NCBI RefSeq assembly: GCF_932294415.1
Contig: NC_065539.1
Span: forward strand, 34,102,001-34,166,000
DNA from: Quercus robur
Taxonomy: Eukaryota; Streptophyta; Magnoliopsida; Fagales; Fagaceae
Length of the DNA: 64,000 nt
Reading direction: 5' to 3'
A model generated the notes under the pieces. It was not told where the DNA came from, ran no database searches, and saw nothing but the letters and a program-made list of their open reading frames with translations. Position 1 is the stretch's first letter, and the number at the start of each line of letters is the position of its first letter. Below, in pieces: positions 57,599 through 60,004 of this stretch. A program made the position numbers and the translations under genes.

Positions 57599-57805
57599 AA
57601 ACCGAGTACAATGGACTCGGTTTCCTTTAAATCAAAATCGAGTCCAATGAACTCGATTTCTGCTCTTGTAAAACGAGTTCATTGAACTCGATTTATATGT
57701 ATAAAAATCGAGTTCATTGAACTCGGTTTCTTGGCCTAGAAATCAAGTCCAATGAACTCGGTTTCTATCCTTACAAAACGAGTCCAATGAACTCAATTTC
57801 TTGCC
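57599..57805. repeat. 35-bp periodic palindrome array in the right MULE arm
   Basis: Six units with CG (or its CA derivative) at 57603, 57639, 57674, 57709, 57744 and 57779, a period of 35-36 bp. Each unit is a near-palindrome of the form AAATCGAGTtCAnTGaACTCGATTT, with CCGAG and TCGAG variants. The left arm at 53745-53880 has matching units in inverted orientation. Confidence 0.85.
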
Positions 57806-58269
57806 TACGTGGACAGTCTGGCTGCTGGCAAAACAGGAAACTTAAGTACAATATACTCGATTTTATAACCCAAAAATCGACTCCTCTGAACTCGAATTGT
57901 TAGAAACCAAATTAGCTTAAAACGTTTCCTAACTAATTATATTATTTGGATTTTATAGTTATTTTCTAAAAAAAATCCTCTGTACTCTTCAACGTTATAA
58001 ATGGGCAAAATGCAACGCACCGTTTTTGCATTCTCCCACAGTCCTACTCCTATGTCATTTACTATTATGTGACACCACCGTGCGCTCCTCCGGTATTATT
58101 ATTTTTTGGGTAAATTCCATAAACCTACCTTTAGGTTTGGACTAATACCAATAAAGTCCACACCATTTAAAAAGTGACCATTTTAGTCCTTTTACCCAAA
58201 TGGTTTGTAACACTATTACTTTTTTTTTTTTTTTTCATTTTTCTTTGTTCTTTCCTCTCTCCAGAATCG

Positions 58270-58307
<38 letters not shown>

Positions 58308-58370
58308 CATATTATCACTCACAACTCACAATTTCAAAAAATCAAAAAATTGAAAGATAAAGAAGAAAAA

Positions 58371-58512
58371 GACCTCGGAATCGACGAGATTGCCAGAAAG
58401 GCCAAGGCTGCCAGGCCCACAGAGGCGGTCAATGATGGCGTTCATCTCGGCCTCCAAGGCGCTCCTCGTCCATCAAAGCCATCGTCTCTGATTTCACGTT
58501 CGTCGCCACCAT
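58371..58512 (-). pseudogene. Captured 5' coding fragment of a PSMD9/Nas2-like proteasome chaperone
   Basis: Minus strand from the ATG at 58512: MVATNVKSETMALMDEE, then, after a one-base frame change, ALEAEMNAIIDRLCGPGSLG and LSGNLVDSE. This is the start of the plant orthologue of 26S proteasome non-ATPase regulatory subunit 9 (Nas2/p27), a chaperone that helps assemble the regulatory-particle base. Only about 47 of the usual 200-plus residues are present, and the PDZ-like domain is absent. The fragment lies wholly inside the MULE inverted repeats, so it was taken from a host gene elsewhere. Its 5' flank (58513-58700) may be the captured 5' UTR. Confidence 0.8.
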
Positions 58513-59040
58513 TGTTACGGGTTTGTGTTTTGGTCACTGACACGGTGGTTTATCAACGCCTAAGTTTTGAGCGGTGCGTTTGAGTTTTAGTGAGTAGTGA
58601 GTGAGAGGAGTTTCAAAAACCCGCTTAGACCGGTAACGTTTCACTTTCCTCTGCTTAGATCCGGCGACATTTCAATCTCCTCTACTCAAATCCGGCGCCG
58701 TGGTGGTGGGTTTGCAATTTCTCTTCTCTCTTCCTCTTTGCGGTGGCGCTGTGGTGGTGGGTTTTGTAGTGGGTCGGTTTTGGTTTGGATTGGTGATAGA
58801 GAATTTGGTTTTTTGTGGGTGTGTTGGATTTTTGTGGGTTTTGGTTTGTGTTTCTGATCTGGGTTTGTTGTGGGGTGGTCGGTATTGCTAATGAGTTTGT
58901 GAATTTTGTTGGTGGTCGGTGGCTCTGGGTTTGTGGGTTTTGTTGATGTTGTTGCTTTGCTGGTGGTTGATGGTTTTGTGGGTTTTGCTGGTGGTCGGTG
59001 GTTGGTGATCGCTGACTTTGTGGGTTCTGTACTCAGAGAT

Positions 59041-59082
<42 letters not shown>

Positions 59083-59216
59083 TTCTGCAAAGAGGAAAGA
59101 ACAAAGAACCAAAATAATAATAATAATGGTGTTACATGCCGTTTGGGAAAAAGGACCAAAATGGTCGCTTTTTAAATGATGTGGATTTTATTGGTATTAA
59201 TCCAAACTTCAGGGTA

Positions 59217-59968
59217 GGGACGAAATGAGTAATTAACCATAATTTCCCAACCATTTAGTTAGTAGTTCTGGTTCCTAAACTATATTATTTACTAGCATCT
59301 CGAGTCTAACAAACTCGATTTTAGCCTATAAATCGAGCATCAAAGACTCGATTTCTATGCTCTAATTAATTCCGATGTGGCATATTTTTTCACGTGGCGA
59401 CTACATGAAAATCTAGTCTTTAAGACTCGATTTATAACCTTTATAAATAAGAACAAATCAGATAGGAACCACTAGAACATCAGAGAAGAATCCAGAGGGA
59501 AAAAAAAAAAAAGAGAGAGAGAAGATTAAGATCGGAGTGGGTGGCTTCAGATCGGCTTCAGACCACCGTGCGCGACCCAAGCCGCGCAAGACCCAGGCCG
59601 TGCGAGCCCCAGGCTACGCGCAACCCAGCTCTTTCTCTCCCTCTGAGCTCTTTCTCTCCCTCTGATCTGAGTCTTTAGGATTGGGATTGATGTGTTTGAG
59701 ATTTCTTAAATTTTTTTTTGGGTATTTCGGCTTGTACATGAGACTTAAATTTTTTAAAATTTTTTTGGGTTAGAAATTGAGTCTTAGAGACTTGATTTCC
59801 AGGTAGATGCCACGTGGAAAAAATACCACATCAAATGTGATCAATCCATGAAAATCGAGTCCCAAAAACTATAGTTTTCCCAACCATCTAGCTAGTAAAA
59901 AATATAGTTTTGAAACCTTAACTATTAACTAGATGGTTGGGAAAACTAAATTAGTTACCCAGATTCCC
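59217..59968. mobile_element. 752-bp MULE nested in the Pack-MULE, 9-bp TSD
   Basis: TTCAGGGTA is repeated at 59208-59216 and 59969-59977. Removing the insert and one copy restores the outer element's right arm. The arms are inverted and share TTTACTAGCATCTCGAGTC and AAAATCGAGTCCCAAAAACT with the 9837-10590 element. The centre has GC-rich text (CGCGCAAGACCCAGGCCG) similar to the CCTGGGTC region of that copy. Non-autonomous. Confidence 0.85.
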
Positions 59969-60004
59969 TTCAGGGTAGGTTTGTAGAATTTACCCTTATT
60001 TTTT

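Follow-up and report, generated by a model that had tools for sequence, protein, structure and literature searches.

The question raised by this locus is how the beginning of a proteasome-chaperone gene came to lie, on the minus strand, in the interior of a transposable element, and what became of it there. The window, that is, the whole stretch of 64,000 nucleotides analysed here, comes from contig NC_065539.1 of Quercus robur (positions 34,102,001 to 34,166,000 of the forward strand). We think, with a probability of about 0.95, that a Mutator-like element (MULE) captured a 5' piece of a PSMD9/Nas2 gene, that the product spread to at least four sites, and that the piece is now passenger DNA.

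The element occupies 58108..59995, with no strand assigned to it or to its structural parts. Its limits were set by its ends and by its target site duplication (TSD), and its 1,888 bp include a nested element of 752 bp together with the 9-bp duplication which the latter made. The element starts with GGGTAAATTCC and ends with GAATTTACCC. The two copies of the TSD, TTATTTTTT, at 58099..58107 and 59996..60004, match each other at 9/9 positions, so that the element with terminal inverted repeats (TIRs) and a 9-bp flanking duplication described in an earlier note on this DNA is indeed present. The left TIR, delimited by comparison of the arms, extends over 58108..58302 and ends in a (CT)n run, its inner end being approximate. 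The right TIR is interrupted by the nested element and consists of an inner part at 59047..59216, the inner end of which is also approximate, and an outer part at 59969..59995, which opens with the 9-bp duplication that arose when the nested element inserted. The inverted arms at 58124-58253 and 59089-59218 are 130 nt long and 82% complementary, and they grade into simple repeats of CT/GA. The right half of the interior (58607..59036) was recognized in the family alignment as sequence common to family members that have no PSMD9 piece.

The nested element (59217..59968), which sits in the right TIR, is a second MULE-like element. It starts with GGGACGAAATG and ends with CAGATTCCC; its 9-bp TSD, TTCAGGGTA, is found at 59208-59216 and 59969-59977, and its arms (59226-59296 and 59891-59961) match at 79%. 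Imperfect palindromic repeats of the form AAATCGAGTC...GACTCGATTT were observed upstream of the outer element (57600-57900) and again within the nested one (59300-59876).

Searches of the genome with the interior and the ends of the element revealed many relatives. The end pattern occurred 158 times in the forward and 163 times in the reverse orientation, and 0 times in the reversed control. The TSD in the window is T-rich and is weak evidence alone; the argument is carried by the other loci. Among the 17 loci with pairable ends, that is, the window and 16 of the 21 loci compared, the TSD copies agreed at 9/9 positions in 14, at 8/9 in two and at 7/9 in one. This count leaves out the donor locus described below (L013), L021 and L036, which hold the same elements as L015 and L027, respectively, and also L026 and L032, where the left TIR of the family was not found. 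L024 gave three pairings because of its tandem left ends, all of them 9/9, and was counted once; an extra pairing at L035 (2/9, with a false end) was dropped. A TSD of 9 bp is a mark of MULEs. By this duplication of about 9 bp and by the long TIRs, which are present on both sides in the TSD-tested family loci, the element can be classified as Mutator-like.

In L024 (729-2140; C4:66.202-66.203 Mb), which belongs to the same MULE family, three left TIRs stand in tandem, 186 bp apart, with a TSD of 9/9. MULEs with multiple TIRs have been described (PMC3310237). The genome is rich in MULE transposase domains: of 1,249 candidates 150 were scored, and 150/150 exceeded the cut-off. A spot check by eye, among the matches listed (100 of the 321 ends), found no transposase within a pair of family ends.

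The captured PSMD9/Nas2 piece lies on the minus strand at 58306..58606. Exon 1 contributes its coding part, intron 1 its beginning, and a further 100 bp or so come from upstream of the ATG. The piece aligns with L013:4210-4529 at 86% identity over 320 columns (E 1e-103), which is far beyond chance, and the similarity ends at 58306 and 58606, both between the TIRs of the element. Within the piece, the decayed coding sequence of exon 1 (MVATNVKSETM...) occupies 58374..58512 on the minus strand, and a 2-bp deletion after codon 15 shifts its frame. Read from 58512 to 58374, this strand gives MVATNVKSETMALMDE, followed by RSALEAEMNAIIDRLCGPGSLGLSGNLVDSE in a second frame. The peptide joined across the frame change matched positions 3-39 of the 79 positions of Pfam Nas2_N with E 1.7e-4 and 21.8 bits, which is just under the curated cut-off of 23.2 bits. 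With a short in-frame lead, the downstream frame gave an E value of 0.005, and the upstream frame alone gave no Nas2_N match in the Pfam search. The fragment also returned one match in a PDB search, to a leucine-rich-repeat protein (E 0.0047), which was taken as chance. The earlier note had read a PSMD9-like N-terminus with one frame change and had placed it at 58371..58512. The two frames and the nucleotide match to the gene support this reading and its location, but the extent has to be corrected, since the capture is wider (58306-58606). As that note had proposed should be checked, we looked at where the similarity halts, and on both sides it stops in the element interior, between the TIRs.

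A DNA search of the genome (786 Mb) with 58370-58520 as the query pointed to four places, namely, the window, C35:22473161-22473309, C2:87831782-87831934 and C2:83279231-83279383. The donor is the locus at C2:87.83 Mb (L013), which was found by the DNA search and by a protein search of the genome. At this locus exon 1 (MVATNVKSETMALMDKRGALEAEMNAIIDRLCQPGGPGLSGNLVDSE, in frame), exon 2 (GFPRSDIDIPVVRAERHRLSG) and a PDZ exon follow one another in order on one strand. The joined protein matched Nas2_N with 76.8 bits and gave two PDZ matches, both under their cut-offs; its best relative of solved structure is 'Probable 26S proteasome regulatory subunit p27'. When the donor protein was compared with the genome at E values up to 10, seven matches were obtained, four within the donor gene and three corresponding to exon 1 in the carriers. 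Besides the capture, the element components matched only the simple-repeat part of the TIR in the 9.9 kb around the donor exon. L013 is a gene and not an element, and no second PSMD9/Nas2 gene turned up in the genome searches. A search of the genome with the Pfam Nas2_N profile found nothing, and there was no signal in the control genomes either; this is no evidence of absence, because the search reads exon by exon and an intron interrupts the domain. A donor elsewhere in the genome that matches at the nucleotide level is thus at hand (C2:87.83 Mb, 86%), and the Pack-MULE reading of the earlier note holds, in that a fragment of a host gene with an identifiable parent is confined to the interior of a TIR element.

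In the donor, the coding sequence of exon 1 has a GC content of 63%, against 35% in the gene region; in the window, the captured piece as a whole has 46%. MULEs of rice are reported to lean to GC-rich sources (PMC4858842). The GC content of donor exon 1 is in line with this leaning, and the preference of Pack-MULEs for GC-rich donors is a tendency and not a requirement.

In all, four carriers of PSMD9 sequence were found in the genome: the window and the elements on C35, at C2:83.28 Mb and at C3:19.59 Mb. The TSD is 9/9 both in the C35 carrier (L014) and in the carrier at C2:83.28 Mb (C2_83, L015); the latter element is 2,744 bp long and has received at least one further insertion. The carrier at C3:19.59 Mb (C3_19, L016) has a TSD of 7/9 and retains, of the capture, just the intron side and some 35 bp from the end of the exon. 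The left TIR of C2_83 is broken by a GC-rich insert (L015 4607-5268), bounded by GTAGGGATGACAAT.../...ATTGCCATCCCTAC, that has the look of a further DNA transposon.

At the site where the carriers have the PSMD9 piece, five relatives that share the left TIR and the right half (at C37:9.84, C37:42.84, C40:36.06, C4:66.20 and C2:41.36 Mb, the last with a match of 186 bp) have another stretch of about 240 bp. This resident stretch also recurs, at 78-83% and reaching its final base, in L072, L074, L075 and L076 (4/4 loci examined), and no left TIR of the family was seen in these loci, a single simple-repeat match in L076 aside. L072 (75%) and L074 (79%) weakly match the beginning of the right half, so that these two are perhaps distant relatives and not outsiders. 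Many further loci of the genome match the resident stretch (L020 1262-1500) at 74-83%. In L076 the inverted arms on either side of it are different ones, 187 bp long, and the sister elements may accordingly be mosaics themselves.

The last 34 bp of the resident stretch are kept in L016 (97%) and visible in C35 and C2_83, and are partly lost in the window. Because these 34 bp survive beside the capture, the capture most simply replaced resident DNA. The simplest order suggested by the alignments would be that an element already holding the resident stretch exchanged the left part of it, about 200 bp, for about 300 bp of PSMD9 sequence. As judged by eye alone, CATA (about 4 bp) is common to the donor and the sister elements at the left junction; at the right junction no clear overlap between the donor and the sister elements was seen by eye. 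Such a replacement fits gap-filling repair with template switching, a model set out for animal Pack-TIRs and also put forward for Pack-MULEs (PMC8277862).

We then consider the decay of the piece. Over the captured piece, the K2P distance from the donor was 0.090 in the window, 0.097 in C35 and 0.093 in C2_83. The values for the coding and the non-coding parts were 0.102 and 0.079 in the window, 0.094 and 0.100 in C35, and 0.101 and 0.086 in C2_83, with standard errors of 0.02-0.03. Nonsynonymous changes made up 5/13 of the coding changes from the donor in the window, 5/12 in C35 and 9/13 in C2_83. The frame-breaking 2-bp deletion is common to the window and C35 and absent from C2_83. Since the window and C35 have the same frameshift, the break most simply predates their parting, and the element moved with a broken frame. 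Because the frameshift is shared and the coding divergence is about equal to the non-coding divergence, we infer that the piece decayed as passenger DNA. The decay, which the earlier note had called readable, is legible in the window copy as a frame broken by the deletion and an exon that has drifted from that of the donor.

Other explanations of the locus can be weighed against these data. Gene pieces are able to insert into transposons, and the PSMD9 piece in the window is decayed; one might thus regard it as a pseudogene, by retrocopy or segmental duplication, that fell into an existing element. However, the piece retains intron 1 and sequence before the ATG, which means that it is no cDNA copy. 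In addition, in three copies, each with a TSD of its own, it stands in for element sequence and has the same borders, and no duplication flanking the piece was seen by eye in the alignment. Because of the intron part and the replaced segment, this explanation is largely refuted, and we give it hardly any credence. A second capture of PSMD9, or its exchange by recombination between elements, deserves somewhat more attention, although it is also unlikely. When the right halves of 9 elements were placed in a tree, the window, C35 and C3_19 formed a group, whereas C2_83 joined C40_36 and C4_66 at 0.87, and the separation of C2_83 from the other carriers has modest support (the supports in this tree range from 0.71 to 0.87). 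In contrast, the left and right borders of the capture are identical in the window, C35 and C2_83, and 8 substitutions and 2 length differences from the donor are common to all three, which could be changes in the donor itself. The placement of C2_83 is possibly due to recombination between elements or to a poor tree, and a second capture is the less likely cause.

The remaining alternative concerns function. The captured piece might act as a regulator, with transcripts through the copies giving rise to siRNAs that act on the PSMD9 gene. Comparison of identical k-mers showed that the donor shares 31/281 21-mers and 19/278 24-mers with the window, 24/292 and 12/289 with C35, and 16/283 and 5/280 with C2_83. 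Small RNAs have been reported to map to the interiors of gene-carrying MULEs in rice (PMC4858842). The shared 21- and 24-mers would permit small-RNA cross-talk in oak, which is a possibility and not evidence that it occurs. But the coding and non-coding parts of the piece drift at about the same rate, and targeting would fade as identity falls. From these comparisons such regulation seems quite improbable, and that a multicopy Pack-MULE family might act in trans, by siRNA or antisense, on the only PSMD9/Nas2 gene found here seems a shade less probable still.

We therefore return to capture by a MULE with subsequent spread and decay. The events may have proceeded as follows. A non-autonomous Mutator-like element would have lost about 200 bp of its interior, and repair would have closed the gap with about 300 bp for which the 5' end of the PSMD9/Nas2 gene on C2 served as the template, giving a Pack-MULE. 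This chimera would then have spread to at least four sites by transposase supplied in trans. The gene piece would have been carried along as passenger DNA, its frame probably being broken before two of the copies parted, and its sequence would have drifted.

The oak element resembles the Pack-MULEs of rice, maize, tomato and Arabidopsis in being non-autonomous, in having long TIRs, in carrying a fragment of one host gene and in being present in several copies; an example in tomato is PM-ZIBP (PMC3310237). Its length without the nested element, about 1.1 kb, is within the peak of 1000-1200 bp given for tomato Pack-MULEs (PMC3310237). It differs from the known Pack-MULEs in that the donor is PSMD9. 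It also resembles animal Pack-TIRs, in which, according to PMC8277862, the interior is replaced by a copy of unlinked host sequence (the gap-filling model) and multiple copies arise by later transposition, although in our case the element is a plant Mutator-like one. The same source considers it worth exploring which of the models holds for Pack-MULEs in plants.

A literature search found no paper that joins Pack-MULE, capture and proteasome, nor one that joins PSMD9 and Mutator-like. The absence of a PSMD9 cargo from the literature searched is weak evidence of novelty, and its importance is small. Pack-MULEs are already known as a kind, and the present case is an ordinary yet unusually readable one of transposons shuffling gene pieces. 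Because the donor, four carriers and capture-free sister elements are found in one genome, the borders, the likely replaced stretch and the order of decay can be read. The case adds PSMD9 to the donor genes known as cargos of Pack-MULEs, and its legible capture borders and replaced stretch bear on how plant MULEs take up genes.
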